Shown here: positions 17,911-46,762 of the stretch, piece after piece
How the letters are laid out: each line of letters starts with the position of its first letter
Numbering within the stretch: position 1 is the stretch's first letter
The notes under the pieces: model-generated
Database searches by the model: none
The model's input: only the letters and a program-made list of their open reading frames with translations
What the model was told of the DNA's origin: nothing
Made by a program: the position numbers and the translations under genes
Assembly: GCF_000716445.1 (NCBI RefSeq)
Contig: NZ_JNWK01000028.1
Location: forward strand, 62,001-126,000
Direction: 5' to 3'
Length of the DNA stretch: 64,000 nt
Source: Streptomyces wedmorensis
Lineage (GTDB): Bacteria > Actinomycetota > Actinomycetes > Streptomycetales > Streptomycetaceae

Positions 17911-17932
17911 GGGTTACCTCGGTTGAATGGGC

Positions 17933-18117: not shown

Positions 18118-18146
18118 CGAACCCCACGGAACCCATGAGGGTGGTC

Positions 18147-18890: not shown

Positions 18891-18971
18891 TCCGTCGAAA
18901 TTCGGAATACTTGAGAAAAGGCTGCCCGGTGGGCAAGCTGTTACCGATCCCGATCCGAAGGAGAATTACAG

Positions 18972-22177: not shown

Positions 22178-24360
<2,183 letters not shown>

Positions 24361-24427
24361 GGTCTCTCCATCTCTCCGGACGGGACCGCCCTTGCCCGGC
24401 CCCATCGGGCGAGCTTAGGCGGACACG

Positions 24428-24510
24428 CTCGAATCCCCCTCGAATCCCGCTCGAATTCTCCTCGCGGGGGGCTTGAGGAGAATTCGAGCGGGAATCCAGG
24501 GGGATTCGAG
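24428..24510. repeat. Long imperfect inverted repeat (36-bp arms)
   Basis: Arms 24428-24463 and 24475-24510 pair at 34 of 36 positions around an 11-base loop. The left arm itself holds three CTCGAAT(T/C) direct repeats. It lies between the VOC gene end and the UvrA-like start, so it may be a terminator, an operator, or both. Confidence 0.85.
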
Positions 24511-24562
24511 CCGTATGGGGGATGTGGCGGCCGCGGGGGCGCTGCGGGTGGGGGCCTGGGCG

Positions 24563-24919
24563 TCAGCGCTCCTGGAGGAGGCCGAGGACGTTGCCGTCGA
24601 CGTCGGTGACGGTGGCGACCAGACGGCCGCCGCCGACCTCGGCGGCGGGGTTCTGCACGACGGCGCCGGCCGCGACGACCTCGGCCAACTTCGCCTCGAT
24701 GTCCGGCACGTGCCAGTACGCCACCGGGGTCGCCATGCCCTGCGTGCCCGCGCCCGGGACCAGGCCGATGTGCTGCCCCGCGACGTCGAAGCCCACGTAG
24801 AAGTCCTCGTCGGTCTGCGGCTCGACGCCGAGCAGCGCGGTGTACACGGTCTTGGCCGTCGCCAGGTCCTTGACGGGGTGGAGCACCGTCTTGATTCCCT
24901 GGGTGGCGGGGTGGGACAT
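24563..24919 (-). CDS. VOC-family (glyoxalase/bleomycin-resistance-like) protein
   Basis: A 118-aa single VOC unit starting at ATG 24919, with AGGAG just upstream. It begins KTVLHPVKDLATAKTVYTALLG and has VGFDVAGQHIGLVPG and WHVPDIEAKLAEVVAAGA, ending with VTDVDGNVLGLLQ. These are the two beta-alpha-beta-beta-beta motifs of the fold. VOC proteins may isomerise, dioxygenate or bind drugs; in antibiotic clusters they are often cyclases or sequestering resistance proteins. No specific metal triad can be assigned with confidence. It is divergent from the secreted hydrolase gene. Confidence 0.85.
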   Translation of the reverse strand: MSHPATQGIKTVLHPVKDLATAKTVYTALLGVEPQTDEDFYVGFDVAGQHIGLVPGAGTQGMATPVAYWHVPDIEAKLAEVVAAGAVVQNPAAEVGGGRLVATVTDVDGNVLGLLQER

Positions 24920-25008
24920 GATCACTCCTAGGTCGGGATCGTGTTTCCGCATGCTAGGGAGAACGCCCCTCCGGATGCTTCTCCGTTCTTGCTCACTCAA
25001 GTGGGATT

Positions 25009-25067
25009 CCAGCCATCTTTGACTCGAATTACAGAGGGCCTTGTCAGGCTGCGAGCGCGTTGCATCC
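25009..25067 (+). promoter_or_regulatory. Promoter block shared with the monooxygenase gene at 41804
   Basis: This 59-base stretch aligns without gaps to 41721-41779. Common elements are CCAGCC at the left end, TTGAC (25019-25023, a -35-like element), CAGGCTGCGA (25045-25054) and TGCATCC (25061-25067). The GTG start of the secreted hydrolase follows 15 bases later. Confidence 0.55.
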
Positions 25068-25081
25068 AGAAGGGGAATCAC

Positions 25082-26623
25082 GTGAAGAAGCTCGCATTGG
25101 TCACGACGGTGATCGTGACCGGCCTGGTGGGTCCGTCCGTCACCCCGGTGGCGGCGGTGGAGGCGGTCACGCCGGCCGCAAGCGTGGCCTGGTCGCCGTG
25201 TCCGGAAAACGACCCGACCCTCGGAGCCATGCTCAAGGGCCTCGAGTGCGGCACGGTCCAGGTGCCGCTCGACTACTCCCAGCCCGACGGCCAGAAGATC
25301 AGTCTGGCACTGACCCGGGCCAAGCACACCGTCGCCGAGGCGGACTACAAGGGTGTCGTGATCCTGCACCGCGGCCAGTGGCCCGGCCCCATCGCGCGGG
25401 ACCTGCCCACCCGGTACGCCAAGGGCACCACCGGTCTCGCGCAGGACGTCGGCGCCGCCTACGACTTCATCGGCTTCGACCCGCGCGGCGTCGGGGCCAG
25501 CGAGCCGGCGATCGTCTGCGACCCGACCTACATCAACCCGGGCCACGCCCTGCCCGACCCGGTGCCGAACTCGCCCGCCGCCGAGCAGGCCCTGGTCGAC
25601 CGGGCACGTTCGTACGCGCAGAGCTGCGGCCAGCAGTACGGCGACATCCTCAACCACCTCACCACCAAGGACTCCGCGCGCGACCTGGAGCAGATGCGCA
25701 TCGCGCTCGGCCAGGAGAAGATCACCTACTTCGGCACCGACTGGGGCGGCTACCTCGGTTCCGTCTACGCCACCCTGTACCCGAACCGGGTCCAGCGGCT
25801 GATCGTCGACAGCGTGCCGAGCCCGAGCGGCGTCGGCTTCCTGAACCAGCTCGGGAAGAACTTCACGACCGAGCAGAACGCCGGCATCTTCTTCGCCTGG
25901 GTCGCCAAGTACGACTCGGTCTACCACCTGGGCACCACCGCCGCCCAGGTCGAGGCGAAGTACTACGCGGCCCAGAACAGCCTCCGTACCGCGCCCGTCG
26001 ACGGCAAGATAGGCCCGGCGGAGTGGGCCGACGTCTTCGAGCCGGTCGTCTACCGCCACTGGATCTGGCTGAACCGCGCGAAGATCCTCTCGGACTTCGT
26101 CGTCAACAACGACCCGACGTCGCTGAAGGCCAACTTCTCCGACCCGGGCTTCCCGCACCAGAACCGCCACACCATGACCAACGCGGTCAACTGCACCGAC
26201 GGCCCGTGGCCGCGGGACTGGAACCCGTACAGCGCGGCCTACTCCGCCCAGTACGCCACCGGCACCACGTTCCTGACCTGGAACAACGCCTGGTACACCG
26301 CTCCGTGCGCCTTCTGGCCGGCGGCCTCCCAGACGCCCGTGCAGGTCGGCAACTCCTCGGTGGACGTCCTGATCGTGCAGCCCGAGTTCGACACCGCGCA
26401 CGGCGTCATCGGCGCCTACGACACCCACCTGCGCTTCCCGAACTCCCGCTTCATCCTGGAGAAGGGCGGCCACAGCGTCGGCGCGGCCCTGTCGGCCAAC
26501 GGCAACACCTGCCTCAACGCCTACCTCAGCGACTACCTGAGGGACGGCACCCGGCCCGCCTCCAAGTGGGGCGTCGACGCCACCTGCACGGCGGCCCCGG
26601 ACCCGGTGCCGGCCGGCGCCTGA
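25082..26623 (+). CDS. Secreted alpha/beta hydrolase of the TAP/SlpD fold with an Asp nucleophile (possible epoxide hydrolase)
   Basis: A 513-aa exported protein. GTG 25082 has AGGGG upstream and opens a signal peptide (KKLALVTTVIVTGLVG). The fold is that of tripeptidyl aminopeptidase-like hydrolases: VPLDYSQPDG, FIGFDPRGVGASEP, and the C-terminal LIVQPEFDTAH with GGHSVG providing Asp and His. In peptidases the elbow reads G-x-S-Y-G; here it is GTDWGGYLG, so the nucleophile is Asp220 followed by Trp. D-W-G is the elbow of epoxide hydrolases and dehalogenases. Epoxide hydrolases (Alp1U, Lom6) act in kinamycin and lomaiviticin pathways, so ring-epoxide opening is a reasonable guess. Confidence 0.75.
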   Translation: MKKLALVTTVIVTGLVGPSVTPVAAVEAVTPAASVAWSPCPENDPTLGAMLKGLECGTVQVPLDYSQPDGQKISLALTRAKHTVAEADYKGVVILHRGQWPGPIARDLPTRYAKGTTGLAQDVGAAYDFIGFDPRGVGASEPAIVCDPTYINPGHALPDPVPNSPAAEQALVDRARSYAQSCGQQYGDILNHLTTKDSARDLEQMRIALGQEKITYFGTDWGGYLGSVYATLYPNRVQRLIVDSVPSPSGVGFLNQLGKNFTTEQNAGIFFAWVAKYDSVYHLGTTAAQVEAKYYAAQNSLRTAPVDGKIGPAEWADVFEPVVYRHWIWLNRAKILSDFVVNNDPTSLKANFSDPGFPHQNRHTMTNAVNCTDGPWPRDWNPYSAAYSAQYATGTTFLTWNNAWYTAPCAFWPAASQTPVQVGNSSVDVLIVQPEFDTAHGVIGAYDTHLRFPNSRFILEKGGHSVGAALSANGNTCLNAYLSDYLRDGTRPASKWGVDATCTAAPDPVPAGA

Positions 26624-28177: not shown

Positions 28178-29374
28178 TCACGCCTCCGGCACGGTTCTTC
28201 TCCAGATTTGCCGGGTACCGCCGGTTGCCGCGGTGACCAGGAACGTGACGGCGGCGACCACGAGGGCCGCCGGAACCGCGCCCGCCAGATCGCACAGCGC
28301 GCCCAGGACCAGGATCGACACCGCCACGCCCGACGGGAGCAGCGTCGCCCGGAGCGTCACCACCGACGACAGCTCCTCGACGGAGGCGGCGGCGAGCAGA
28401 CGGTTGTTGAAGTGGACGAAGGCAACCTCGAACAGGACCAGGAACACCGCGTACAGCACGAGCGTCGGCGCCGTACGGCCGACGAGCACCGCGGCCAGCA
28501 GCGGCGGCATGGGCAGCACCGCCCAGACCGCCGACGGGACCCGGTCGAGGTACTGCTGCGCGGGGAGGGCGGCGAGCGAACCCGCGAAGATCGCGACCGC
28601 CGACATCGCGACGAAGACGCCCACCAGGCGGGTCCCGCCGCCCAGCAGGGTCAGCGGGATGACGGTGACGGCCACCGTGTGGAAGCCCTGCCAGAACGCC
28701 ACCAGCAGGAACCGGGCGAAGAGCCGGCGCAGTACCGGGTCCTCGATCCGCAGCCGGGTGGCGGCCGCGGTCTCCTCGCCGCCCTTCTCCCCGGCGGCCC
28801 CGCCCGCGGCGGTCGGCAGCGCCCAGGCGAGGAGCGCGGAGAGCGCGAGGGTCGCCACGTTCACCGCGATCAGCCCCCGCAGGGACAGGACGGAGCCGGC
28901 CGGGCCCGCCAGCGCGGCGCCGACGCTGAGGCCGGTGAGCTTGCCGATCTCGGCGACGGTGTTCGCCCGGTCGAGCCGCTCCGCGGGCACCGCGCCGCGC
29001 AGCACGACCGAGGTGGCCGAGCGGGTGACCGCCTCGAAGAAGCCGCGGGTCAGGACGAGTCCGGTGGCGACCGCGAGCAGCGCGGAGCCCGGCGCGGCGA
29101 GCGCGGCGGCGGTGAGCAGCAGGCTCGCGGCCTCGGCGAGCCGGACGAGCCGCTCCGGAGCGCGCCGGGCGAGCAGCCGGTTGAGCGGTGCGGCGAGCAG
29201 CAGCGCGGGCAGCCACGGGGCGCTCAGCACGGCGCCGGCGAGCAGGCCGGAACCGGTCACCGAACCGACGTGCGTGGACAGGCTCACGAGAACCAGAAAA
29301 CTCCCGCACGTGTTGACGAACAGCAGCGCGGGAGTGAAGTGAGGCGACCGTAATGTCGCGGGAAATAACGTCAT
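28178..29374 (-). CDS. MFS efflux transporter
   Basis: A 398-aa membrane protein with GGAGGG upstream of its ATG at 29374. About 12 hydrophobic helices are visible, for example LFVNTCGSFLVLVSL, LLLTAAALAAPGSALLAVATG and AALVVAAVTFLVTAA. The loop between helices 6 and 7 carries TAAGGAAGEKGGEETAAATR. It resembles MFS_1/MFS_3-type exporters, with the RLVRLAEAASLLLT loop after helix 2. It probably exports the cluster product or an intermediate. It is divergent from the ATP-grasp gene, sharing a 77-base control region, and lies upstream of the glycosyltransferase on the same strand. Confidence 0.88.
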   Translation of the reverse strand: MTLFPATLRSPHFTPALLFVNTCGSFLVLVSLSTHVGSVTGSGLLAGAVLSAPWLPALLLAAPLNRLLARRAPERLVRLAEAASLLLTAAALAAPGSALLAVATGLVLTRGFFEAVTRSATSVVLRGAVPAERLDRANTVAEIGKLTGLSVGAALAGPAGSVLSLRGLIAVNVATLALSALLAWALPTAAGGAAGEKGGEETAAATRLRIEDPVLRRLFARFLLVAFWQGFHTVAVTVIPLTLLGGGTRLVGVFVAMSAVAIFAGSLAALPAQQYLDRVPSAVWAVLPMPPLLAAVLVGRTAPTLVLYAVFLVLFEVAFVHFNNRLLAAASVEELSSVVTLRATLLPSGVAVSILVLGALCDLAGAVPAALVVAAVTFLVTAATGGTRQIWRRTVPEA

Positions 29375-29451: not shown

Positions 29452-30720
29452 ATGACAGCAGCCATAAAAGGCGGCCCGTGCGTCGTGATGGTCGATGCCT
29501 ATGCCGCGGTCCGTGGACTCGTTCTGGAATTCCGTGATCAGGGGTGTTCCGTCGTCCGTGTGCAGAGCACGCGCGAGGTGCCGTTCGTCTACCGGTCGGC
29601 GCCGCACGTTCCCGACGACTTCGTCCTGGACCTCGTCCACGACGGCGACCCGGCGGCCACCGCGGACGCGGTCGCGGCCTTCTCGCCGATCGCGGTGATC
29701 TCGGGCGGCGAGAGCGGGGTGGAGCTCGCGGACCTGCTCGCGGAGCTCCTCGGCCTGCCTGGCAACGGAACCGCCCTGAGCGCCGCGCGCCGCGACAAGC
29801 ACCTCATGATCGAGACCCTGCGCGCCGCCGGACTCCGCGCCGCGCGACAGCTGTGGGCCACCGACGCGGACGAACTCGCGGCCTGGCACCGCGAGCTCGG
29901 CGGCCGGGTCGTCGTGAAGCCGCCGCGCAGCGCCGGCAGCCAGGGCGTCTCCTTCTGCGACACCCCGGAGGAGTCGGTCGCCGCCTACCGCTCCCTCGCC
30001 GGCGCGGACGACGTCTTCTCCCAGCCCAACCGGGGGGCCGTGGCACAGGAGTACCTGGCGGGCACCGAGTACATGGTCAACACCGTGAGCCGGGACGGCC
30101 GCCACCACGTGTGCGACGTCTGGCGCACCGGCCGGGTCAGCGCGAACGGCGTCGTCGACCTCTGCGACGCCCTCTCCCTCATCGACTCCGGCAGCAGGGT
30201 CGTGCGGCCGCTCACCGAGTACGGCTTCCAGGTCCTCGACGCCCTCGGCATCCGGCACGGCCCCGCGCACCTGGAGATCAGGATGACCCCGGACGGGCCG
30301 TGCCTGGTCGAGGTCGGGGCCCGGATCGCGGGCGGCGGCATCCCGGCGGCCGCCGGCCTCGGCATCGGCGCCTCGCAGCTCGACTGGACCGTCGACGCCT
30401 ATCTGCGGCCCGAGCGGTTCCACGCGCGCGCGGGGACCCCGTACGAGGTGAAGCGGTACGCCGCGATCGCCGGCATGGTCTCGCCGGTGGAGGGCGTGCT
30501 CCGCGAGTACCGGGGCATCGAGGAGATCGAACGGCTGGAGGGCTGCCACGCCCTGGCGACCCTGGTGAAGCCGGGCCAGGAGATCCGCAGGACGGTCGAC
30601 GACCTCACGTACCCGGTGGTCGTGACCCTGCTGCACGACCTCGACGAGGTCGTGCAGCGCGACCTGAACACCATCCGGCACCTCGACGGCGTCGGGTTCT
30701 ACGCCCTCGAAGGCTCCTGA
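29452..30720 (+). CDS. ATP-grasp ligase (L-amino-acid-ligase-like)
   Basis: A 422-aa cytoplasmic ligase. The front domain holds FSPIAVISGGESGVELADLLAE; the ATP-grasp domain has RDKHLMIETLRAAGLRAARQ, RVVVKPPRSAGSQGV, VAQEYLAGTEYMVNTVS and the Mg-binding HLEIRMTPDGPCLVEVGARIAG. The C-terminal lobe is the beta-rich type seen in BacD-like ligases. Such enzymes couple a carboxylate to an amine through an acyl phosphate, making dipeptides or adding amino acids to peptides (pheganomycin PGM1 uses a ribosomal peptide). It stands divergent from the MFS gene and converges on the PhyH gene beside the micro-ORF operon. Its substrates are unknown. Confidence 0.88.
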   Translation: MTAAIKGGPCVVMVDAYAAVRGLVLEFRDQGCSVVRVQSTREVPFVYRSAPHVPDDFVLDLVHDGDPAATADAVAAFSPIAVISGGESGVELADLLAELLGLPGNGTALSAARRDKHLMIETLRAAGLRAARQLWATDADELAAWHRELGGRVVVKPPRSAGSQGVSFCDTPEESVAAYRSLAGADDVFSQPNRGAVAQEYLAGTEYMVNTVSRDGRHHVCDVWRTGRVSANGVVDLCDALSLIDSGSRVVRPLTEYGFQVLDALGIRHGPAHLEIRMTPDGPCLVEVGARIAGGGIPAAAGLGIGASQLDWTVDAYLRPERFHARAGTPYEVKRYAAIAGMVSPVEGVLREYRGIEEIERLEGCHALATLVKPGQEIRRTVDDLTYPVVVTLLHDLDEVVQRDLNTIRHLDGVGFYALEGS

Positions 30721-30763
30721 CCGCGTCTCGACCGGGAACCGACCGGCCGCCGACCGCGCCACC

Positions 30764-30792
30764 GTTCGACCGCTGCCGATCCGCGGTCGAAC
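30764..30792. terminator. Bidirectional terminator between ATP-grasp and PhyH genes
   Basis: A perfect 10-bp inverted repeat, GTTCGACCGC (30764-30773) and GCGGTCGAAC (30783-30792), in the 73-base gap of two convergent genes. Confidence 0.7.
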
Positions 30793-30793
30793 A

Positions 30794-31591
30794 TCATGCG
30801 CGGGCGGCGGCCGGTTCGCGTCGCGTCCAGGACGGGCGCGGCACCCGGTAGACGAAACTGACGGCCGTACGGGGCTCCGCCGCCGTCGTGTTGGGCGCCG
30901 AGCGGTGCACCACCATGCCGTCGAAGAGGACGGCCGAGCCGGGTGAGAGGGGCACGGCCACCGGCTCCGTCCCCGGCAGGTCCGCGTCCGCGATGTGCGG
31001 CTCGACCGCCGCCGCCCGCGGGGCCTCGCCCGGCAGCCGCTCGCGGTCACCGGTGTGGGGGAGCAGCCCGAGCACGTGCGAGCCGGGCAGGAACTCCAGG
31101 CAGCCGTTGCGCGGGGTGGCGGGTTCCAGCGCGATCCAGATCGTCACGATGCCGTGCTCGTCCGCGCCGAAACCGGGCGGCGCGAACGCCAGGTCCTGGT
31201 GCCAGGGCTTCGCGGAGCCCACCACCGGCGGCTTCGCCCACAGGAAGGCGTTCACCAGGGTGCCCGGGTGCCCGCCGGCGGCCCGGGCGACCGGCCCGTC
31301 GGCCAGGCCGAGGGACCGCTGCACCGCGTCGAACTCCGGCACGTGCTCGTGGATGCGGTCCGCCGAGCGGAGCACCCCGGCCAGCGCCCCCGACCCCTGC
31401 TGCCAGGCCGCCCAGCCGCCGATGCCGGGCGCTTCGAGGACGAAGTCCCCGGTGGAGACCGTGCGGTCGCGGGCGAGCTCCTCCAGCCGGCCGACCGCCC
31501 GCCGGAGCCGGTCGAGCGCGTCGCCGGTCGCGAGCGCGGGGAGCCGGGTGAATCCGTTCTCCCGCAGGTCACGGGATTCGGTGTCGACCAT
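30794..31591 (-). CDS. Phytanoyl-CoA dioxygenase family Fe(II)/2-oxoglutarate oxygenase
   Basis: A 265-aa double-stranded beta-helix enzyme. The iron triad is visible: His131 and Asp133 in KPWHQDLAF, and His229 in GMVVHRSAPN, with Arg241 in PRTAVSF as the 2-oxoglutarate anchor. NGCLEFLPGSHVLG is the typical PhyH strand. These enzymes hydroxylate, epoxidise or halogenate small molecules or carrier-bound amino acids. A substrate made by the adjacent ATP-grasp ligase or the micro-ORF operon is plausible. It is divergent from the micro-ORF operon with ~176 bases between, and translation begins at 31591 after GGAGAGAGG. Confidence 0.88.
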   Translation of the reverse strand: MVDTESRDLRENGFTRLPALATGDALDRLRRAVGRLEELARDRTVSTGDFVLEAPGIGGWAAWQQGSGALAGVLRSADRIHEHVPEFDAVQRSLGLADGPVARAAGGHPGTLVNAFLWAKPPVVGSAKPWHQDLAFAPPGFGADEHGIVTIWIALEPATPRNGCLEFLPGSHVLGLLPHTGDRERLPGEAPRAAAVEPHIADADLPGTEPVAVPLSPGSAVLFDGMVVHRSAPNTTAAEPRTAVSFVYRVPRPSWTRREPAAARA

Positions 31592-31683
31592 TCTTCGGGT
31601 CCTCTCTCCTGGTGTCGGATGGGCGCGAACCTACCCCGGATATATCGCAGAATGCTCTCTTTCGGCGTTCGCGGCCCTTTCCG

Positions 31684-31713
31684 TTGTAGCGCCCTGTGGG
31701 CCCTGTCTAATCT
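31684..31713 (+). promoter_or_regulatory. Promoter of the micro-ORF operon
   Basis: TTGTAG (31684-31689), an 18-base spacer and TAATCT (31708-31713). The predicted start near 31720 gives a ~47-base leader before the micro-ORF, which has its own GGAGGG site. Confidence 0.55.
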
Positions 31714-31767
31714 TCTCGGCATGAGGTCGACCGACCGCATGAAACGGAATACCGGAGGGAGTTCACA

Positions 31768-31827
31768 ATGAGCGACGGTACCTTCATGGAGACCCGTGAC
31801 GCGCAGCAGGAGACCAGCAAGTGGTAA
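31768..31827 (+). CDS. 19-aa micro-ORF with C-terminal Trp (candidate precursor or leader peptide)
   Basis: ATG 31768 is preceded by GGAGGG (31754-31759) at an 8-base spacing, one of the best ribosome-binding sites in the window. The peptide is MSDGTFMETRDAQQETSKW, ending TGG-TAA. It is hydrophilic, with a charged/Gln-rich body and a final Lys-Trp. It lies 47 bases after a predicted transcription start. A perfect 13-bp hairpin 20 bases downstream separates it from eight coupled enzyme genes, the layout of small RiPP precursors such as microcin C's heptapeptide gene. It has no PqqA E-x-x-x-Y motif, no Cys and only one Trp codon. An attenuation leader peptide is the main alternative. The function is unproven. 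Confidence 0.6.
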   Translation: MSDGTFMETRDAQQETSKW

Positions 31828-31847
31828 TCCGCTGACCAGCGAATTGC

Positions 31848-31882
31848 GCCGCCCGTACGGATTCGCATTCCGTACGGGCGGC
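31848..31882 (+). terminator. Hairpin between the micro-ORF and its enzymes (partial terminator or attenuator)
   Basis: GCCGCCCGTACGG (31848-31860) and its exact complement (31870-31882) enclose a nine-base loop, 20 bases after the micro-ORF stop. Partial read-through would give much more peptide than enzyme. Confidence 0.8.
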
Positions 31883-31914
31883 TCGTCGTCCATCGTCCCG
31901 AGAGAGAGGTTGAG

Positions 31915-33282
31915 ATGGTAGGTAATCGCGTTTCGCAGGTCATCGACATTCCCGCCGACATGCTGGTGATCGACGACTCCACCGACGACCGCTACTGGGC
32001 GTCGGTGGAACGCGTCGTCGACCTCGCGCGCGAGAAGGGCCGGGCCGCCGACGGGGTGCCGCTGCTCGCGACCCTCGCCATCACCCACCCGGAATGGCCG
32101 GTGCGCGCCGGCGCCGTACGGCTGCTCGCCGAGCACCACGCCGGCGACCCCGCGGCCGACACGGCCGTCGCCGCCTCGACGCACGACACCGTCGACTGGG
32201 TCGCGTTCACGGCCCTGAAGGTCATCACGGAGTACCGCATCGCGGCCGCCGTCCCCGACCTCATCCGCATCTCGGGCTGGCCCAGCAACTTCACGAAGCC
32301 GGGCTGGGCGCGCAAGCCCGTCGGCTGCGGCGCGGCCCTCACCAAGCGCGCCCTCATCAGCGTGTTCGGCACCCGCGACCCGGCCGAACTCCGCCGCCTC
32401 GAGGACGAGTACTTCTCCGACATGCGGGCCCGGATCGAGGCCGCGCGCACGCGGCCCCGGCGCAACGCCGACGTCGTCCTGGTGCCCGGCGGCCCGGCGA
32501 TCATCGGCGCGATCGAGGAGTCCGACGCCTTCCGCATGCTGACCGACGACCTGTCGCTGAGCGCCGTGGACGTGCCCGCCTTCCACATCGACCGGACGAC
32601 GGTGACCAACGCCCGCTACCGGGAGTTCCTCGAAGAGGTCGGCGACTCCGGCGAGTTCGACCACCCCGACCAGCCGGAGGAGCGCTCGCACCGCCCCGCG
32701 CACTGGCACGACCCGCGCTTCAACGCACCGGGCCAGCCGGTCGTCGGCATCGACTGGTACGACGGCTACGCCTTCGCGAAGTGGGCCGGCGGCTCGCTGC
32801 CCAGCGAGCACCAGTGGGAGAAGGCGGCGCGCGGCACCGACGGCCGCCGCTTCCCCTGGGGCGACGAGTGGGACCCGGCCCGGGTGAACTACGTCGAGCG
32901 GGCCTTCGGCGAGAACGTCGCCGACCTCGACTCCCTGGAGGCGCTGCTCGTCACCGTCGAGCAGGGCGAGAGCCCGGCCCACCCGGTGCTGGCCGCGGAC
33001 GCCCTCCCCGAGGGCGCGAGCCCGTACGGCGTCCTCCAGACCTCCGGGAACGTCTGGGAGCTGACCCGGACCAACTTCTACACCGGCGAGGACATGGACC
33101 CCTTCTTCAAGGGCCGCCACCCGCTGGACTTCATGAACCGCAAGGACGCCTTCCACGTCCTGCGCGGCGGCACCTGGACCTCGCCCCCGGCCTGTCTCAC
33201 CACGTTCTACCGGGGCAAGGACCTGATCACCGACCGGCACATGGAGGTCGGCTTCCGCTGCGTGTACGAGGCGGCCGGCTGA
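31915..33282 (+). CDS. HEAT-like repeat / formylglycine-generating-enzyme-fold fusion
   Basis: A 455-aa protein. Residues ~40-130 look like HEAT-type helices (HPEWPVRAGAVRLLAEHHAG, TVDWVAFTALKVITEYRIAAAV). From ~180 on it is an FGE/SUMF1-fold domain: DVPAFHIDRTTVTNARYREFL, GIDWYDGYAFAKWAGGSLPSE, HQWEKAARGTDGRRFPWGDEW, LQTSGNVWELTRTNFY, and the end HVLRGGTWTSPP then HMEVGFRCVYEAA. In true copper FGEs the strand after RGGS carries two Cys; here it reads TWTSPPACLTTFYRG, so the pair is not kept. It also lacks the DinB domain of EgtB. A mononuclear-metal oxidation or a binding role is possible. It is coupled to the next gene (TGATG). Confidence 0.8.
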   Translation: MVGNRVSQVIDIPADMLVIDDSTDDRYWASVERVVDLAREKGRAADGVPLLATLAITHPEWPVRAGAVRLLAEHHAGDPAADTAVAASTHDTVDWVAFTALKVITEYRIAAAVPDLIRISGWPSNFTKPGWARKPVGCGAALTKRALISVFGTRDPAELRRLEDEYFSDMRARIEAARTRPRRNADVVLVPGGPAIIGAIEESDAFRMLTDDLSLSAVDVPAFHIDRTTVTNARYREFLEEVGDSGEFDHPDQPEERSHRPAHWHDPRFNAPGQPVVGIDWYDGYAFAKWAGGSLPSEHQWEKAARGTDGRRFPWGDEWDPARVNYVERAFGENVADLDSLEALLVTVEQGESPAHPVLAADALPEGASPYGVLQTSGNVWELTRTNFYTGEDMDPFFKGRHPLDFMNRKDAFHVLRGGTWTSPPACLTTFYRGKDLITDRHMEVGFRCVYEAAG

Positions 33283-34706
33283 TGCGCCTGACATCGCTCG
33301 GCCACGCCGCCGTCCTCGTCGAGACGGGGACGGAACGCATCCTCTTCGACCCGTGGCTCACCCAGCGCCTCGACCGCTTCTGGGAGCACCATCCGCCGCT
33401 GCCCGACGACCTGGTCCGCCAGGTGCTCGACGAGGGCGTCGACTACGTGGTCCTCAGCCACCACCACTACGACCACCACCACTTCCCGTCGCTGCTCCGG
33501 CTCGTCGACGGCGCCGACGTGGACTTCGACGACAGCCCGCGCCAGAGCTCCGGCGTCACCTGCGTCTACCCCGCGGGACCGGTGCCGCCGCAGCTGACCG
33601 CCTCGGGGCTCGGACACCAGGCGATCGCCTGGACGCTGCGCCGCTTCGGCTTCGAGCGCCTGCACCCGGTGACCCCGGGCGACACCGTCACCCTGGGCGG
33701 GGCGACCCTGCGGACGTTCCCCTCGGCCGTGTCGTTCCCCGAGATGAGCGTGCTCGTGGAGACCGCCGACGCCTCCGTCATGCTCTGCGGGGACGCCCTC
33801 CTGCACGAGGCGACCGTGGCCGCCTTCCAGCGCGACGACGCGCCGCGCCTCGACGCCGTGTTCGTGCCCGCGCACAGCGTCTCGCCGCCCGGCGTGCTCA
33901 CCGAGCGCCGCGCGCTGACCGACCCGGACGCGGTCCGCGCCCGCGCCGTCGCGAACTTCGACCGGTACGTCGGGACGCTGCCCGCCACCGTGACCGTGCC
34001 CTCCTCGTTCGGCTGGCGCGTCAGCGGCGACGGCGAGCGCGACTACTCCTGGTGCAACCGGACGATGTTCCCCTTCACCCCGACCGAGGCCCTCGCGCGC
34101 CTCGACGAGCTGGGCCGCGACGGCCTGCTCTGGGGCCCGGGCCAGGTCATGGAGGTGACGGACGGCAAGGCCGTCCTGACCGACGGACCCGTCGCGCCCG
34201 ACGCGTACGACTTCGACGAGGTCTACGCCGAGGTCCGGCTCGACCCCGACACCCCGGTCCCGCCGTTCGACGCCTCCCTCGACCGGTACGGCCGCCAGAC
34301 CCGCCCCGCCGAGGACCTCCTCCGCGAGGTGCTCGACCGGCTCGTGGCGACCGACTACTGGTACCGGGCGCTCGACGACGGCGCCGGACGGCACGTCGTC
34401 TCGCTGTACGAGGACGGGGACGGCGAGGGGGGAGCGGGCGCCGAGACCGCCTTCCTGCTCGACCCGGTGGCCGGCCGCGTCACCCGCCTCGGCCCCGGCC
34501 CCGCCCGGAGCCACGTCGCCGGCGGCGAGGGCTGGACCGAGATCGCGGCGAGCACCCTGGAGGCCATGCTCGGCGCCGACCTGCTGTTCGGCAGCTCCTT
34601 CGGCCTGTGGGCCAGCGACGGGGTGCTGCTCTCCGCGGTCTTCCACCACCCGTCGTTCTACACCCGCCACGTGGACCGCGAACTGCGGCAGGAGGCCCGC
34701 TCATGA
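33282..34706 (+). CDS. Metallo-beta-lactamase-fold hydrolase/oxygenase, long form
   Basis: A 474-aa protein whose ATG shares bases with the previous stop (TGATG). The N-terminal ~270 residues are a UlaG/CMAH-like MBL domain: LTSLGHAAVLVETG, metal motif H60-x-H62-x-D64-H65 in LSHHHYDHHHF, and CGDALLHEA with VPAHSVSPPG as later ligands. The C-terminal ~180 residues include PSSFGWRVSGDGERDYSWCN and an acidic region without a recognised domain. Two-domain MBL proteins of this type include oxygenases acting on peptides or sugars as well as hydrolases. Its place in the operon suggests action on a peptide- or amino-acid-derived substrate. Confidence 0.8.
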   Translation: MRLTSLGHAAVLVETGTERILFDPWLTQRLDRFWEHHPPLPDDLVRQVLDEGVDYVVLSHHHYDHHHFPSLLRLVDGADVDFDDSPRQSSGVTCVYPAGPVPPQLTASGLGHQAIAWTLRRFGFERLHPVTPGDTVTLGGATLRTFPSAVSFPEMSVLVETADASVMLCGDALLHEATVAAFQRDDAPRLDAVFVPAHSVSPPGVLTERRALTDPDAVRARAVANFDRYVGTLPATVTVPSSFGWRVSGDGERDYSWCNRTMFPFTPTEALARLDELGRDGLLWGPGQVMEVTDGKAVLTDGPVAPDAYDFDEVYAEVRLDPDTPVPPFDASLDRYGRQTRPAEDLLREVLDRLVATDYWYRALDDGAGRHVVSLYEDGDGEGGAGAETAFLLDPVAGRVTRLGPGPARSHVAGGEGWTEIAASTLEAMLGADLLFGSSFGLWASDGVLLSAVFHHPSFYTRHVDRELRQEARS

Positions 34707-35785
34707 GCGGCCCCGCCGACACGTTCCCCGCCACCGTCGTGGTCGACCACGAGAGCGTCCGCCTGCGCGGCAACCCGCTGGGAGACCCGTACCGGCGGAG
34801 GATCGAGGTGCACCTGCCGCCCGGATACGACGGCGTCCGCCGCTTCCCGGTCGTCTACTGGCTGCCCGGGTTCGGCGCCCACCCGGGCCTGACCGGCCGG
34901 GCACTCGCCTTCGGCGCCTCCGTCGCCGACCGGCTGCGGCAGGCGATGGAGGACGGCCGGGTGCCGCCCGCGCTGCTCGTCGTGCCGGACTGCACCACCG
35001 CCTACGGCGGCTCGCAGTACCTCGACTCCGCCGCCTCGGGGGAGTACGCCGGCTACCTCGCCGAGGTCGTCGCCGAGGTCGACCGGCGGTTCGCGACCCG
35101 GCCCGAACCGGCCTGGCGCGCCGTCGGCGGCAAGTCCAGCGGCGGCTACGGGGCGTTGATCGCCGGCATGACCTCCGACCTGTTCGGAGCGGTCGTCGCC
35201 TGCTCGCCCGACGCCGGGTTCGAGCACTGCTACCTGCCGCTGCTGCCCGGCACCCTCGACACGGTCCGGGCGGCCGGCGGCGTCGACGGGCTGCTCGCCC
35301 GCAGGGCCGCGGGCCCGCACGACGTGCCGTTCATGGTCGCGATGAGCATCGTCGCCATGGGCATGTGCTACGCCGAGAAGCCCGACACCAGCGCCTCGGA
35401 CGCGCTGCCGTGCGACCCCGGGACCGGCCTGTTCCGCGACGACGTGTGGCAGCGCTGGCTCACCCTCGACCCGGTGCGGATGCTGCCCGAGCACGCCGGC
35501 CGGCTGGCCGGGCTCGGCCTGCTCCACCTCGACGTCGGACAGCGCGACGAGTACGGCATGCACTGGGGCGTCCGCGCCCTGCACGCCGCCCTCCGCGCCC
35601 ACCACGTCCCGCACGTCTACCGCGAGCACGAGGGCGGCCACCACGGCATCGAGCACGTCTTCACCGAGGCCCTGGCCGGCCTCCGGCACGTCTGGCGGGA
35701 GCCGGAGGCACCCGCGGAGCGGGCACGGACGCCGAAGAGCCGGACACGGCAGGCGGGTTGGGTGAGTGGCACATGTGCGGTATAG
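34703..35785 (+). CDS. Esterase D / antigen-85-type alpha/beta hydrolase
   Basis: A 360-aa serine hydrolase overlapping the MBL gene by four bases (ATGA). The front has the typical strand set RIEVHLPPGYDGVRRFPVVYWL. The nucleophile elbow is GGKSSGGYGAL, with Asp in GQRDEYGMHWG and His in HEGGHHGIEHVF. The family includes S-formylglutathione hydrolase, Fes-like and antigen-85 esterases; here it may release a product from an ester or act as acyltransferase. No signal peptide, so cytoplasmic. Its 3' end overlaps the next gene by 13 bases. Confidence 0.85.
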   Translation: MSGPADTFPATVVVDHESVRLRGNPLGDPYRRRIEVHLPPGYDGVRRFPVVYWLPGFGAHPGLTGRALAFGASVADRLRQAMEDGRVPPALLVVPDCTTAYGGSQYLDSAASGEYAGYLAEVVAEVDRRFATRPEPAWRAVGGKSSGGYGALIAGMTSDLFGAVVACSPDAGFEHCYLPLLPGTLDTVRAAGGVDGLLARRAAGPHDVPFMVAMSIVAMGMCYAEKPDTSASDALPCDPGTGLFRDDVWQRWLTLDPVRMLPEHAGRLAGLGLLHLDVGQRDEYGMHWGVRALHAALRAHHVPHVYREHEGGHHGIEHVFTEALAGLRHVWREPEAPAERARTPKSRTRQAGWVSGTCAV

Positions 35786-37620
35786 CGGGATTCATCAGTT
35801 TCGACGGCCGCCGGGACCGCGCCTGGCTCGACGCGCTCGGCCGGACCATGACCGACGCCATGGCGCACCGCGGCGAGGGCTGCCGCGCCCCGTACGTCTC
35901 GGCGTGCGGCACCGTCATGCTGTGCGCGACCCGGCTGGCCGTCCGCGACCGCAGCCACGCGGGCGACCAGCCGATGACCGACCCCACCGGCCGGGTCGTG
36001 CTCGTCCACAACGGCGAGGTCTACGGCTCCCGTTCGCCCGCGCCGCCGCTGTGGCCGCGCCGCACCAGCTGCGACACCGAGTTCGCCCTCCAGCAGGTCT
36101 GCCGCGAGGACGACCCCGCCGACGCGCTGCGGCCCCTCGACGGCATGTTCGCGCTCGCCTGGCACGACACCACGACGGGCCGGGTCGTACTGGCCCGCGA
36201 CCACTTCGGCGTCAAACCGCTCTTCTACGCCTTCACCGAAGGCGGGCTGCTGTTCGCCTCCGAGCAGCAGGTCCTGCTCCGCACCGGCCTGATCACCCCC
36301 GAGGTCGACGCCGAGGAGTACCTGCTGCGCTCGTGGATCCGGATGGACGCGGCCGACGACCACACCTGGCTGCGCGGCGTCCGCTCCCTCCAGCCCGCCG
36401 AATACCTGGCGGTGGACGGAGGGCGCACCCGCACGCACCGCTACTGGCGGCCCGCGTCCGTGGACGGCCTGGTCGAGCCCGAGGAGATCAGGGCCGCCTT
36501 CGACCGGGCGATCGAGCAGCGGTCGGTGTCCGACGTCCCCCGGGCCGCGGTGCTCAGCGGCGGCGTCGACAGCACGGCGATCGCCGCCGGCCTGACCGCC
36601 GCCGGAGTGCCCCTCGACGGATACGTGCTCCGCTACCAGGACGGCATCGGCGGCTCGGGCGACGACGTCGCCTACGCCACCGAGGTCGCCGAGCGCCTCG
36701 GGGTGGGGCTGACCGTCTGCGACCTGGACCGGCACGCCGCCGCCGACCTCGTCCCCGTCCTGCCCACCCGGCTGATGCGGCCGCTCCTGCACGGCGCCGA
36801 ACTCGCCATGCACCACCTCTACGGGACCATCGCCGGCGACCGGAAGGTGGTCGTCTACTCGGGCCACGGCGCCGACGAGCTCTGGGGGTACCAGGACGGC
36901 CGCTACTTCCCCGTCGTCGACCCCCTCGCCCCCACGTACATCCACGGCCGGCACTACCTCACCCACCGGCTGCACGCCGACGAACGGCCCGTCTGGGCGA
37001 AGCTCGTCGGCTGGATGGCGCACGGACTCGACGTCGACATGGACGTCGTCACCGACCGGGTGTGGGAACGCACCATGGACGAGTACCGGGCGCTCAAGAC
37101 GGCCTCGCCCCTCAAACGCGGCCGGCACCACCTGATGCGGCGCTTCCTCGTCTACGTCAACGACATGGTCGACGCCACCTCGTCGACCTTCACCCTGGAG
37201 GACCGGCCCGTCTTCCAGGACGTCACCCTCACCGAACTCGCCTTCCGCTGCCCCGAACACCTCAAGGACACCAACAAGCCCGGCAGCCACAAGAGCCTGC
37301 TCAAAGCGGCGCTCGCCGACCTCATGCCCGAGTCGGTACGCCACCGCCGCAAACAGGGCTTCCCCACCCCCACCGACCCCCGCTACGTGCAGCGGCTGAC
37401 CGAACTCGCCGACGGACTCGGCACCCCCTTCGGGCTGCCACCGCTGCCGGACGCGCTCCGCGCCGAACTGGGCGTCGGCGAATGGATGTTTCTCGCGTCC
37501 TCCTCCGCCTGGCTCGACCACCTCGCGGAGTTCAGAACCGAACCGAGGAGTCAGAGTCATGGCGAACCGTCCCGTACCCCAGTGGCGCTGGCAGATCCTG
37601 GAGCGCGCCGCCGACCTTGA
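35773..37620 (+). CDS. Asparagine-synthetase-like glutamine-dependent amidotransferase
   Basis: A 615-aa two-domain enzyme. The N-terminal glutaminase domain keeps Cys2 (MCGIAGFISFDG), NGEVYG, and LARDHFGVKPLFY. The synthetase domain has the pyrophosphate loop VLSGGVDSTAIA and YSGHGADELWGYQDG, and the end RRKQGFPTP is close to canonical AsnB. Both halves look functional, so it should make an amide from a carboxylate using Gln and ATP. Relatives in antibiotic pathways amidate carrier- or peptide-bound acids (OxyD-like) or form rings (lasso, beta-lactam). It overlaps the next gene by 62 bases. The substrate is unknown; the peptide's acidic residues or C-terminus are candidates. Confidence 0.85.
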   Translation: MCGIAGFISFDGRRDRAWLDALGRTMTDAMAHRGEGCRAPYVSACGTVMLCATRLAVRDRSHAGDQPMTDPTGRVVLVHNGEVYGSRSPAPPLWPRRTSCDTEFALQQVCREDDPADALRPLDGMFALAWHDTTTGRVVLARDHFGVKPLFYAFTEGGLLFASEQQVLLRTGLITPEVDAEEYLLRSWIRMDAADDHTWLRGVRSLQPAEYLAVDGGRTRTHRYWRPASVDGLVEPEEIRAAFDRAIEQRSVSDVPRAAVLSGGVDSTAIAAGLTAAGVPLDGYVLRYQDGIGGSGDDVAYATEVAERLGVGLTVCDLDRHAAADLVPVLPTRLMRPLLHGAELAMHHLYGTIAGDRKVVVYSGHGADELWGYQDGRYFPVVDPLAPTYIHGRHYLTHRLHADERPVWAKLVGWMAHGLDVDMDVVTDRVWERTMDEYRALKTASPLKRGRHHLMRRFLVYVNDMVDATSSTFTLEDRPVFQDVTLTELAFRCPEHLKDTNKPGSHKSLLKAALADLMPESVRHRRKQGFPTPTDPRYVQRLTELADGLGTPFGLPPLPDALRAELGVGEWMFLASSSAWLDHLAEFRTEPRSQSHGEPSRTPVALADPGARRRP

Positions 37621-38659
37621 CCCGGTGCCGCCGGTGCTCAGCGAGGCGGCGGCACAGGACGGGTGCAACTTCACGGTGTGGCGGCCGACCGTGCTGCCCG
37701 CGGGCTGCGACAGCAGCGTCGGCACGCTCCGCAGGGAGGCTCCTCCCGGGCGGGTGGAGGCCGAGGGCCGCACCCCCTGGAGCGATGCCAACCCGGCCGG
37801 ATACCGCACGGAGATCTCCGGCGGTGGGCGCCGGCTGCGCCTCAAGCAGTTCCACTACGACTGGGCCTTTCCCGCCGCGGACCACCCGTGCCTGTGGGGC
37901 AGTGAGACCAGGCCGTACGAGATCGGCGAGGGCCGGGTCGCCTGGCTCGGCACCGACTACCTGGGGCACCGGGCCGGCAGCGCCCGGATGGCCCGTACCA
38001 CGGTCGAACTCTCGGTGCTCGAAGGCGAGTTCACCGACGAGGAGCTCGTAGCGCTGTTCGCGGCGCTGCGCCCCGCCGTGCCCGAGGCCGCGGAGCGGAT
38101 CCTCGCCACCCCGTTCGCCGAGCTGAGCTACTGGGCCAGGCACCGGGCCGACATGGTGTCCGTCCCCACCGGCGTCTTCTCCTTCCACCGGCGCGACAAG
38201 AAGCACGAGGGCGACTGGATCCCCTCCGCCGACGTCGCCGCCTTCCTCGCCGCCCAGGGCGTTCCGGTGACCGCCGGCGGGTTCCGCGCGGAGAGCGCCG
38301 CGACCTTCGGGGACGGCGCCGCCGTCCGCGAACTGGAGGTCGTCTACGCCTCGCCGGACGGCGCCGAACTGCGCCTCACGGCCCAGCGCACCGGCGGCGG
38401 GCGCCTGGAGTTTCCGCCCGTCCGAGAGAAGCACCCCGCCACCGAGGAGCTCCACGACCTCGACGGCCGCCCCCTCCACCTCGGCCACGTCGACGCCGAG
38501 TACGGCGCCTGCGACGCCTGGTGGCAGCACCCCGACGGCTACGACCTCCGCCTGCTGGGCAGCGCCGGCACGGGCCTGGGCCGCGAGGCCTTCCTCGGCC
38601 TGGTCGCCGGCATCGACGCCGACCTCCGCCTCGCCGGGAACGCCGAGGTGCTGGGATGA
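37559..38659 (+). CDS. Unrecognised 366-aa operon protein
   Basis: I do not recognise this family. ATG 37559 has GAGGAG (37544-37549) upstream and lies inside the 3' end of the AsnB-like gene. The protein has no signal peptide or membrane helix. It starts MANRPVPQWRWQILERAADL, and contains clusters of aromatic residues (FHYDWAFPAADHPCLWG, FAELSYWARHRADMVS, DAWWQHPDGYDL). The Cys are in DGCNFTVW, PAGCDSS and GACDAWW. Two halves of similar composition suggest a duplicated alpha/beta fold. It is coupled by ATGA to the aldehyde dehydrogenase gene, so it belongs to this pathway as an enzyme or a binding partner. Confidence 0.75.
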   Translation: MANRPVPQWRWQILERAADLDPVPPVLSEAAAQDGCNFTVWRPTVLPAGCDSSVGTLRREAPPGRVEAEGRTPWSDANPAGYRTEISGGGRRLRLKQFHYDWAFPAADHPCLWGSETRPYEIGEGRVAWLGTDYLGHRAGSARMARTTVELSVLEGEFTDEELVALFAALRPAVPEAAERILATPFAELSYWARHRADMVSVPTGVFSFHRRDKKHEGDWIPSADVAAFLAAQGVPVTAGGFRAESAATFGDGAAVRELEVVYASPDGAELRLTAQRTGGGRLEFPPVREKHPATEELHDLDGRPLHLGHVDAEYGACDAWWQHPDGYDLRLLGSAGTGLGREAFLGLVAGIDADLRLAGNAEVLG

Positions 38660-40065: not shown

Positions 40066-41193
40066 ATGGCGACCGCCACCCCGCCGCGGCTCGACTTCCG
40101 CAGCGACACCCGCACCCTGCCCGACGCCCGGATGCGCGCGGCGATGGCCGGGGCCAGGGTCGGCGACGACGTGTACGGCGACGACCCCACCGTCGCCCTC
40201 CTGGAGGAGACGGTCGCCGGACTCCTGGGCACCGAGGCCGCGTTGCTCATGCCCAGCGGCACCATGGCGAACCTCGTCGCCCCGCTCGCCGCGGCCGGCC
40301 CGCCCGGGTCGCCGCCGCCCCGCGTGATCGCCGGAGCCGACACCCACATGGCGTTCCTCGAAGCGGACGGGCTGCGCCGCTTCGGCGGGGTCGAGCTCGT
40401 GGCGGTGCCACAGCGCCCCGACGGGCTGCCCGACCCGGACGCCCTGACCGCGCTGCTCGCCGCCGGCGCGGAAGGACGCCCGACCGTGGTGTGCCTGGAG
40501 AACACCAGCATGATGCGCTCGGGCAACGCCCTCGACGCCGCCGCCACCCGCGCCGTGGCCGACCTGGCCCACCGGTACGGCGCGCACTTCCACCTCGACG
40601 GCGCCCGCCTCGCGAACGCGGCCGTGGCGCTCGGCGTCCCGCCCGCCGAACTCGCCGGCCCCGCCGACAGCGTGTCCTTCTCCGTCTCCAAGGGACTCGG
40701 CGGCCCGGTCGGCGGACTCCTCTGCGGCACGCGCGAGTACCTCGCGCACGCCCGGGAGTCGAGGACCTGGCTCGGCGGCTCCCTGCACCAGGCGGGCATC
40801 GTCGCGGCACCCGCCCTGGTCGCGCTCGGGCGCCTGCCCGAACTCGCCGCCGACCACGAGAAGGCCGCCGCCCTCGCCGACGGGCTCGCCTCGGTGCCCG
40901 GCGCCGAGGTGATGCGCCCGCCGCGACCGACCAACATGGTCATGGCCCGACTCGCCGGACTCGCCGCCGACGACTGCGCAACGCGCCTCGCCGAACACGG
41001 AGTTCGCGTCCTTCCGCTGCCGAACGGCCATGTCCGCTTCGTCGCGCACCGGTCACACGACATGATCAGTGTGCACGCGGCCGTCAGGGCGGTGGCGGCC
41101 GTGGCGGCGACGCTGCCCGCGAGGCCCGGCCGACAACCGAACGAGCCGTCCCCGGCCGGGGAGGGCTCCGCGACATCGATGGAGGAAGCATGA
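40066..41193 (+). CDS. Threonine-aldolase-like PLP enzyme
   Basis: A 375-aa fold-type I PLP enzyme. It begins LDFRSDTRTLPDARMRAAMA and has VGDDVYGDDPTVALLE, typical of low-specificity L-threonine aldolase. The PLP lysine is Lys209 in SFSVSKGLGGPVGG, and FHLDGARLANAAVALG holds the Asp that binds the ring N. The stretch CLENTSMMRSGN differs from the canonical CLENTH, so specificity may differ. Aldolases cleave or form beta-hydroxy-alpha-amino acids from glycine and an aldehyde. Together with the aldehyde dehydrogenase this implies an unusual amino acid in the pathway. Confidence 0.88.
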   Translation: MATATPPRLDFRSDTRTLPDARMRAAMAGARVGDDVYGDDPTVALLEETVAGLLGTEAALLMPSGTMANLVAPLAAAGPPGSPPPRVIAGADTHMAFLEADGLRRFGGVELVAVPQRPDGLPDPDALTALLAAGAEGRPTVVCLENTSMMRSGNALDAAATRAVADLAHRYGAHFHLDGARLANAAVALGVPPAELAGPADSVSFSVSKGLGGPVGGLLCGTREYLAHARESRTWLGGSLHQAGIVAAPALVALGRLPELAADHEKAAALADGLASVPGAEVMRPPRPTNMVMARLAGLAADDCATRLAEHGVRVLPLPNGHVRFVAHRSHDMISVHAAVRAVAAVAATLPARPGRQPNEPSPAGEGSATSMEEA

Positions 41194-41645
41194 CCGACAT
41201 GCCACCGCGTGGACTGGAGGAGCGGCTCAAGGACACGCGTGCCAGGCTGGAGAACGACATCGACCTCTGGGTCGCCACGTCCGGCGCCGAGGGCGGGGTC
41301 CACCTCATCCCCCTCTCGTACCTCTGGGACGGCGCCGCGTTCCTGATCTCCACGCCGCGCGCCTCGGTCACCGGCCGCAACCTCCTCGCCGACGGCCGGG
41401 TGCGCCTCGGCCTCGGCCCGACCCGCGACGTGGTGATCGTCGACGGCGTCGCCGAGCCGCTGGACGTCGCCGAGCTCGGCCAGGAGGCCGGGGACGCCTT
41501 CGCCGCGAAGACCGGTTTCGACCCGCGCGAACTCGAGCAGCCCTACCAGTACTTCCGCATCCGCCCGCAGCGCACCCAGGCCTGGCGCGAGGCGAACGAG
41601 CTGGCCGGCCGCGGCCTGATGCGCGACGGGGTCTGGCTCGGCTGA
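41190..41645 (+). CDS. PPOX-class (pyridoxamine 5'-phosphate-oxidase fold) flavin/F420 protein
   Basis: A 151-aa split-barrel protein, coupled to the previous gene by ATGA. It shows LENDIDLWVATSGAEGGVHL, PLSYLWDGAAFLISTPR and RVRLGLGPTRDVVIVDGVAE, which form the cofactor barrel, and ends FRIRPQRTQAWREANELAG. Members bind FMN or F420 and act as oxidases, reductases or haem-binding proteins. It is the last gene of the nine-gene operon and is followed by a hairpin at 41667-41702. The cofactor cannot be decided from sequence by eye. Confidence 0.85.
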   Translation: MTDMPPRGLEERLKDTRARLENDIDLWVATSGAEGGVHLIPLSYLWDGAAFLISTPRASVTGRNLLADGRVRLGLGPTRDVVIVDGVAEPLDVAELGQEAGDAFAAKTGFDPRELEQPYQYFRIRPQRTQAWREANELAGRGLMRDGVWLG

Positions 41646-43555: not shown

Positions 43556-43572
43556 CGCCGCTCCCGGAAACA

Positions 43573-43612
43573 CGAGAAGGGGCCGTGCCCGATCGGGCAC
43601 GGCCCCTTCTCG
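43573..43612. terminator. Perfect 40-base palindrome, bidirectional terminator
   Basis: Arms CGAGAAGGGGCCGTGCCCGA (43573-43592) and its exact complement (43593-43612). It separates convergent genes. Confidence 0.9.
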
Positions 43613-43638
43613 TCGCCGTCAGGGCCTCGGAGGCCGGG

Positions 43639-45120: not shown

Positions 45121-45164
45121 TCCACCAGCTCCTTGATGAATGATGCATACGGTGTCGTAGGGCC

Positions 45165-45235
45165 CGTCCCGGCGCCGACGGGTCGGCGCCGGGACGGACT
45201 TCGGCAGTCTGACCGGGGCTCCAAGAACCCCGGTC
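45165..45235 (-). terminator. Two hairpins between minus-strand flavoenzyme genes
   Basis: A perfect 14-bp stem (45165-45178 with 45183-45196) and an 8-bp stem GACCGGGG/CCCCGGTC (45211-45218 with 45228-45235) follow the monooxygenase that ends at 45249. They suggest separate transcripts for the two flavoenzyme groups. Confidence 0.7.
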
Positions 45236-45248
45236 GAGTGCGGCTTGA

Positions 45249-46733: not shown

Positions 46734-46762
46734 ACCTGAGCTCCTTGGTTCGAGGGGGCCGG

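Follow-up and report, generated by a model that had tools for sequence, protein, structure and literature searches.

A Lys-Trp-ending micro-ORF and its HEAT/FGE-fold partner in Streptomyces wedmorensis: probable precursor of an undescribed RiPP-like class

Crocagin and ammosamide are precedents for small molecules cut from the end of a peptide. The C-terminal Tyr-Trp of the crocagin precursor gives rise to a small alkaloid, the C-terminal pair is conserved over related clusters, and the putative esterase CgnD is described as leader protease (PMC10070186). Ammosamide is likewise a small product from a peptide end, with a C-terminal Trp and an asparagine-synthetase-like enzyme (PMC12715798), and an AsnB-like enzyme of another ribosomally synthesized and post-translationally modified peptide (RiPP) makes C-terminal nitriles (PMC13060819). 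Among the top matches of a search of the open-access literature, with subscription papers outside its scope, none described a RiPP class with an FGE/EgtB-fold enzyme as its founding member, and FGE was tied to RiPPs only by one paper's mention of a bufferin fused with an FGE domain and a cytochrome (PMC12452194). Here, we analyzed a 19-codon open reading frame (ORF), the micro-ORF, that lies directly upstream of a gene for a HEAT and FGE/EgtB-fold protein in Streptomyces wedmorensis. The stretch of 64,000 nucleotides that was analyzed (GCF_000716445.1, NZ_JNWK01000028.1, forward strand 62,001-126,000) is called the window, and positions are window positions. The micro-ORF, its signals, and its partner gene are:

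31754..31758, + strand: Shine-Dalgarno site GGAGG, 9 nt 5' of the start codon, read from the sequence
31768..31827, + strand: candidate precursor peptide gene encoding MSDGTFMETRDAQQETSKW, identified from the sequence and from Lys-Trp (KW)-ending ORFs in 33/33 distinct loci and 4/4 plasmid loci
31848..31882, + strand: hairpin with a 14-bp perfect stem and a 7-nt loop, without a T-run 3' of it
31915..33282, + strand: HEAT and FGE/EgtB-fold protein of 455 aa that stays with the peptide in all cluster types, identified from Pfam, a predicted model, and fold comparison

The micro-ORF and its conservation

The micro-ORF runs from an ATG at 31768 to a TAA stop at 31825-31827 and encodes the 19 amino acids of MSDGTFMETRDAQQETSKW, with its single Trp codon at the final sense position. 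A preliminary description of the window had called a 19-codon gene with a terminal Trp and a strong ribosome-binding site, and both hold. It had also called a promoter, but scanning 30500-33000 with a sigma-70 consensus gave no match, a negative of little weight in a high-GC actinobacterium. The hairpin was correctly described as perfect and just after the stop, though its stem is 14 bp and not 13 bp. The hairpin folds at -32.2 kcal/mol (z -4.1 versus shuffles), and folding of the 201-nt stretch 31730-31930 gave a z of -2.7 against 200 shuffles.

The preliminary description had further proposed asking whether homologous operons carry an ORF of 15-30 codons with a conserved C-terminus before the FGE-fold gene, and had named operons without any conserved micro-ORF there as refuting its reading. 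Every homologous operon read has an ORF there, of 18-41 codons and ending in Lys-Trp or in Lys-Trp plus two residues. A one-genome-per-species scan for the FGE-fold protein gave 49 loci, of which L033-L047 hold close relatives (≥56% identity) and L048-L081 generic FGE proteins (26-36%). Across all collections, a KW-ending upstream ORF was present in 38 of 38 close-FGE loci read, the window included; 33 of these are distinct, five rows being the same sequence from two collections. The ORF lies ≤350 nt from the aligned start of the FGE match in 35 of the 38, and at -362 to -364 in L005, L006, and L097. All four plasmid loci read, from 23 records found, also have a KW-ending ORF, which in Streptomyces clavuligerus encodes MTAEDFLGSREAGEAATKW; the PLSDB gene tables of these four loci, which are incomplete, hold no feature at the peptide's place. 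In a genus sample, the FGE protein was found at E ≤ 1e-45 in 18 of 392 genomes, and the peptide ORF accompanied it in all 18.

Short ORFs are common, and a chance ORF that is no gene had to be considered. First-order Markov resampling of the upstream sequence (200 per locus) gave an expectation of 0.0012 per locus for a KW-ending ORF with a Shine-Dalgarno-like site. No such ORF was found near 26 other FGE-domain genes (1500 nt, either orientation) or upstream of 30 distant FGE loci (4 of 34, with <400 nt upstream, being left out), giving 0 of 56 more distant FGE-domain genes in all. In an alignment of 16 peptides from cluster types I-IV (our own names, set out below), Phe, Arg, Lys, and Trp are invariant besides Met. 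Because of this conservation, chance is refuted as an explanation and keeps a vanishingly small probability; the micro-ORF is almost certainly a real, translated gene.

The peptides of types I-IV share a leader motif, F-[ILM]-x-[TS]-R-[DE], which is not kept in types V and VI, where KW itself is retained. Type I peptides (17 rows) have a pN/pS of 0.58, and all three stop codons are used among them. Distances between peptides follow those between the FGE-fold proteins (Mantel r 0.85; 0 of 2000 permutations as high). This correlation indicates inheritance as a pair and not contact, because shared ancestry alone would also give it.

Some choices define these counts. Genes in fetched loci were called with a codon-usage script. 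The start of L044 is uncertain, and this peptide was entered from an internal GTG in the alignment and distances, so that its Met is there by construction; for L088 and L089, the longer of two in-frame ATG starts was taken. We left out the tandem second FGE genes L099, L100, L116, L125, and L126, which share an operon with the first FGE gene (L116 has no KW ORF of its own); L003 and L121-L123 as repeats of the window or earlier loci; L124 (G1217); and, of the 23 plasmid records, 19 made up of 15 listed rows from S. clavuligerus, H2, and three unlisted ones, together with second places.

The hairpin and the pairing of peptide with protein

A hairpin with z ≤ -2.7 was found within 90 nt 3' of the stop in 21 of 22 loci tested, the remaining one, L044, being not above shuffles (z -1.2). 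Observed sequences were searched in 2-nt steps and shuffled ones in 4-nt steps (60 shuffles), a slight bias toward the observed. Most type I loci have a CCCGTACGG-like stem, and the stems of the other types are of unrelated sequence. A hairpin of conserved position and unconserved sequence thus closes the peptide part of the transcript. Judged from sequence, such a hairpin would suit an abundant precursor message as a 3' end that stabilizes it or terminates part of transcription.

A short Trp-ending ORF immediately before a hairpin and an operon also resembles a Trp-sensing transcription attenuator or a ribosome-arrest leader peptide, the former of which the preliminary description had ranked as the weaker alternative. 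It fails on structure: pairing of the leader as an alternative to the hairpin was not above shuffles in the 22 loci (mean z +0.11, range -1.05 to +1.25), a T-rich tail (≥5 T in 10 nt) occurs in 1 of the 22, and no T-tailed terminator was found by consensus in 30500-33000. There is one Trp codon, KW is not always terminal, and the conserved Phe and Arg lie far from the stop. We therefore rejected Trp attenuation, and consider a leader of either kind very improbable.

The partner protein matches FGE-sulfatase and, weakly, HEAT in Pfam and nothing else, and its nearest neighbors in the tree are from Streptomyces. In FGE, two active-site Cys bind copper and the substrate motif is CxPxR, while the sulfoxide synthases EgtB and OvoA carry a DinB domain with iron ligands. 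Pfam found no DinB domain in the window protein; a HEAT-like domain stands in its place, and the predicted model is helical at the N-terminus (residues 24-178). One Cys (C427) is kept in 64 of 67 aligned rows, and the site aligned by eye to the second FGE copper Cys is Tyr, Phe, or Ser. The protein thus differs from EgtB, OvoA, FGE, PvdO, and CalU17 (SUMF1/EgtB/PvdO) in its HEAT-like domain, in that the FGE copper Cys pair is not seen as such, and in having its own peptide encoded alongside. None of the precursor peptides has a CxPxR motif, and a single Cys occurs only in some type I peptides among those read.

That the fold can serve as a binding domain (PorK is among the best fold matches) and that peptide and protein are inherited as a pair would also suit a small subunit or activator that is not consumed and permanently binds or regulates the HEAT/FGE-fold protein. 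The hairpin right after the peptide and a KW end with an optional two-residue tail better fit a substrate made in excess, and we hold the subunit explanation to be improbable. Instead, the peptide is very probably the substrate or scaffold of the FGE-fold protein.

Neighboring genes and cluster types

The preliminary description had the peptide opening an operon of enzyme genes. Eight genes do follow, mostly overlapping, to 41645, with a 6-nt gap only before the aldolase gene, and Pfam supports the enzyme list given for them, from which the gene at 37559-38659, without a family, had been absent. The peptide's constant partner is the FGE-fold protein and not the eight-gene set, since five further cluster types bring different genes in place of the rest. 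The remaining genes of the set and its flank are:

33282..34706, + strand: metallo-beta-lactamase (MBL)-fold protein, 474 aa; Pfam, with a weak PDB match to a non-heme diiron monooxygenase
34703..35785, + strand: esterase-family alpha/beta hydrolase, 360 aa; Pfam, a candidate leader peptidase by analogy with crocagin CgnD
35773..37620, + strand: AsnB-like amidotransferase, 615 aa; Pfam, NCBIfam, PDB match
37559..38659, + strand: protein without Pfam or NCBIfam match, 366 aa; fused in frame with AsnB in Kineosporia L042
38656..40059, + strand: aldehyde dehydrogenase, 467 aa; Pfam, NCBIfam
40066..41193, + strand: GntG-type pyridoxal phosphate-dependent aldolase, 375 aa; exceeds the NCBIfam cut-off
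41190..41645, + strand: PPOX-fold flavin/F420-type oxidoreductase, 151 aa; Pfam, PDB match
30794..31591, - strand: PhyH-type 2-oxoglutarate oxygenase, 265 aa, divergent to the operon; Pfam, synteny
29452..30720, + strand: ATP-grasp ligase of the L-amino acid ligase kind, 422 aa; Pfam, NCBIfam, PDB match, synteny
28178..29374, - strand: MFS transporter, 398 aa, candidate exporter; synteny, annotated relatives, and reading by eye

The AsnB-like protein has hydroxyamidotransferase 7ylz as its nearest solved relative (E 1.5e-30), and the ATP-grasp protein matches L-amino acid ligase 30vh (E 4.8e-63). The PPOX protein is close to 2iab, a solved structure deposited as a hypothetical protein (E 9.6e-59). 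For the MBL-fold protein, the sole PDB sequence relative at E ≤ 0.01 is non-heme diiron monooxygenase 8a90, matched at E 5.9e-6 over residues 2-74 only, with a second, non-significant stretch; the comparison was with diiron beta-hydroxylases of the CmlA type. That the MBL-fold protein, aldolase, and aldehyde dehydrogenase might perform beta-hydroxylation, retro-aldol cleavage, and aldehyde oxidation is a guess and no more. None of the 111 listed relatives of the 366-aa protein (itself included) has a Pfam domain, and fold comparison gave no clear match. In the type I loci examined, its gene follows AsnB, and the two form one 962-codon reading frame in L042. Twenty residues are invariant in 69 rows of this family, seven of them Arg, Lys, or Trp.

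Six cluster types could be distinguished, in which the peptide and the HEAT/FGE-fold protein stay and other genes are replaced. Type I, that of the window, has the order MFS, ATP-grasp, PhyH, peptide, FGE, MBL, esterase, AsnB, 366-aa-type protein, aldehyde dehydrogenase, and aldolase, kept in L033-L043, L046, and L047 (Streptomyces, Kineosporia, and Thermomonospora); PPOX ends the set in all but L046, whose contig stops inside the aldolase. Two genomes of Thermomonospora's family have the type I set again at 48-66% identity: G845 has it without PPOX (not found in the fetched part), and the fetched part of G918 holds ATP-grasp, MFS, and FGE through aldolase, with no PhyH match. In type II (L045, L082, L104, and L109; ending KWEA or KWEG), FGE is joined by MFS, a methyltransferase, and an ATP-grasp ligase; all of these loci but L104 also have calls for a PPOX-like gene and a P450. 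Type III (L102, L103, and L111; KW), whose families were read on L111 and assigned elsewhere by clustering, has FGE, a class II aldolase, a luciferase-like monooxygenase, an aminotransferase, PPOX-like, and MFS genes, as well as nonribosomal peptide synthetase (NRPS) condensation and adenylation-carrier proteins; a methyltransferase is present in L103 and L111, the L102 stretch ending in the MFS gene. On the S. clavuligerus plasmid (L135, 13598-21955), a KW ORF is followed by FGE, class II aldolase, luciferase-like, two aminotransferase, PPOX, and P450 genes, and this row has no NRPS; the KW ORF is absent from the PLSDB table.

Type IV (L044, from the same genome as L110) has a His-Lys-Trp (HKW) peptide whose N-terminus is longer, together with FGE, PPOX, and an EgtD-like methyltransferase. 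The EgtD-like, histidine-specific methyltransferase domain (L044 11737-12684) thus stands beside an EgtB-like-fold gene and an HKW peptide, which suggests an N-methylated amino acid product. Type V (L083, L084, L108, L117, and L137; KWAA) has FGE, PhyH, a second FGE, and MFS; a PPOX gene was found in each of these loci except L117. In L117 (G845:C11:60000-79900), type V and type I modules adjoin and are convergent (4657-19110). Type VI (L105 and L138), the smallest, has a 26-codon ORF ending ADKW and consecutive FGE, MFS, and methyltransferase genes, with an additional acetyltransferase gene in L138.

This company bears on whether the peptide is consumed or is a carrier on whose C-terminus non-encoded units are built, as in pearlins, and then clipped, with Lys-Trp only a recognition handle. 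The ATP-grasp ligases of types I and II and the AsnB-like gene, seen in type I only, would suit a carrier, and the EgtD-like methyltransferase of type IV and the NRPS adenylation and aminotransferase genes of type III suggest amino-acid-sized products. Against it, no PEARL-type (lantibiotic dehydratase) protein is among the ten window proteins scanned, gene calling in what was fetched of types III-VI gave nothing that clusters with ATP-grasp ligases, and the ends KW, KWEA, KWEG, and KWAA do not amount to a single shared acceptor. A carrier is therefore unlikely, though less so than the subunit.

Proposed role of the peptide

The preliminary description's reading of the micro-ORF as a ribosomal natural-product precursor, with Lys-Trp as a possible modified end, is supported by its presence in every homologous operon read and by the residues invariant in types I-IV. 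At the gene level, an encoded precursor stands beside candidate modifying enzymes, and the 16 aligned peptides combine a leader motif with a conserved end. Crocagin and ammosamide, as precedents, lend further support. The micro-ORF is thus probably the precursor of an undescribed RiPP-like class. We consider Lys-Trp likely to be the modified core, modification of the peptide being an inference; EA, EG, or AA after KW in some types suggests something like a trimmed follower.

As in crocagins, the last two residues with Trp final and an esterase are in play, here as Lys-Trp and an esterase-family gene; crocagins instead have Tyr-Trp, the peptide-binding proteins CgnB and CgnE, and the dioxygenase CgnC, and the text of PMC10070186 does not mention FGE or sulfatase. 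We rejected a crocagin-like assignment, all peptides read ending in Lys-Trp or Lys-Trp-x-x and not in Tyr-Trp. Pearlins and ammosamide share an amino-acid-sized product on a ribosomal peptide, a Trp end, and an AsnB-like enzyme, but their Trp is added by a PEARL (PMC12715798), whereas here it is encoded; membership in a PEARL pathway was rejected, none being present in the proteins scanned. Asparagine-synthetase-like RiPP enzymes (nitrilobacillin PesC, TsrC, and lasso cyclases) are comparable in AsnB-like action on peptide carboxylates (PMC13060819) and differ in that AsnB is here coupled to a protein without known family and is nearest to 7ylz. A lasso peptide was likewise rejected: leader peptidase and RRE (B protein) families were not found in the ten window proteins, and lasso cyclase models scored 64-92 bits against cut-offs of 300-525. 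An RRE/PqqD-like leader-binding domain is common in RiPP pathways but not required; no Pfam match to one was found in these proteins (E ≤ 0.01), structure-only RREs not being sought.

What the sequences show is a short peptide encoded directly upstream of the HEAT and FGE/EgtB-fold protein and inherited with it, and a hairpin that closes the peptide part of the transcript; the mechanism that follows is proposed. The hairpin would stabilize or partly terminate the message, giving peptide in excess of enzyme, and the HEAT domain may bind the leader motif, bringing Lys-Trp into the FGE-fold domain, which would start the chemistry by oxidizing Lys and/or Trp, perhaps bonding the two. In the window type, the MBL-fold protein, PhyH oxygenase, and PPOX may add redox steps; cleavage of Lys-Trp from the leader could fall to the esterase; the Trp carboxylate thus exposed may be acted on by the AsnB-like enzyme and its 366-aa partner; the aldolase and aldehyde dehydrogenase may together remodel a side chain; the ATP-grasp enzyme would add an amino acid; and the MFS protein would export the product.

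Around the module lie deoxysugar genes, a glycosyltransferase, ring hydroxylases, an acyl carrier protein, and a polyketide cyclase. The stretches 41804-59264 and L139 14946-17437 hold aromatic polyketide tailoring genes, the acyl carrier protein (49319-49588), and, ~15 kb past the window end, two adjacent ketosynthase-family genes (a ketosynthase/chain-length factor-like pair; 141438-143428 of the window's contig, C28). By its gene content, the module belongs to, or adjoins, a type II polyketide cluster that includes deoxysugar genes. In other Streptomyces, type V modules occupy the same flanks as the window's type I module. At 22178-26623, UvrA-like genes (two adjacent frames, one of which was scanned), a glyoxalase-fold gene, and a TAP-like hydrolase adjoin the glycosyltransferase, a trio that recalls the self-resistance sets of DNA-damaging polyketides such as trioxacarcin. 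It is conceivable, if doubtful, that Lys-Trp is rebuilt oxidatively by the FGE/EgtB-fold enzyme, excised, and joined to a glycosylated type II polyketide; if true, this would be both a RiPP class founded on the FGE/EgtB fold and a RiPP-polyketide hybrid.

If the precursor reading is right, it would add a RiPP class founded by an FGE/EgtB-fold protein, with a precursor of 18-41 residues that annotation has overlooked. The Lys-Trp rule would then serve as a simple key for mining, and the six cluster types would imply several product families. The copy on the S. clavuligerus megaplasmid makes this reading directly testable.
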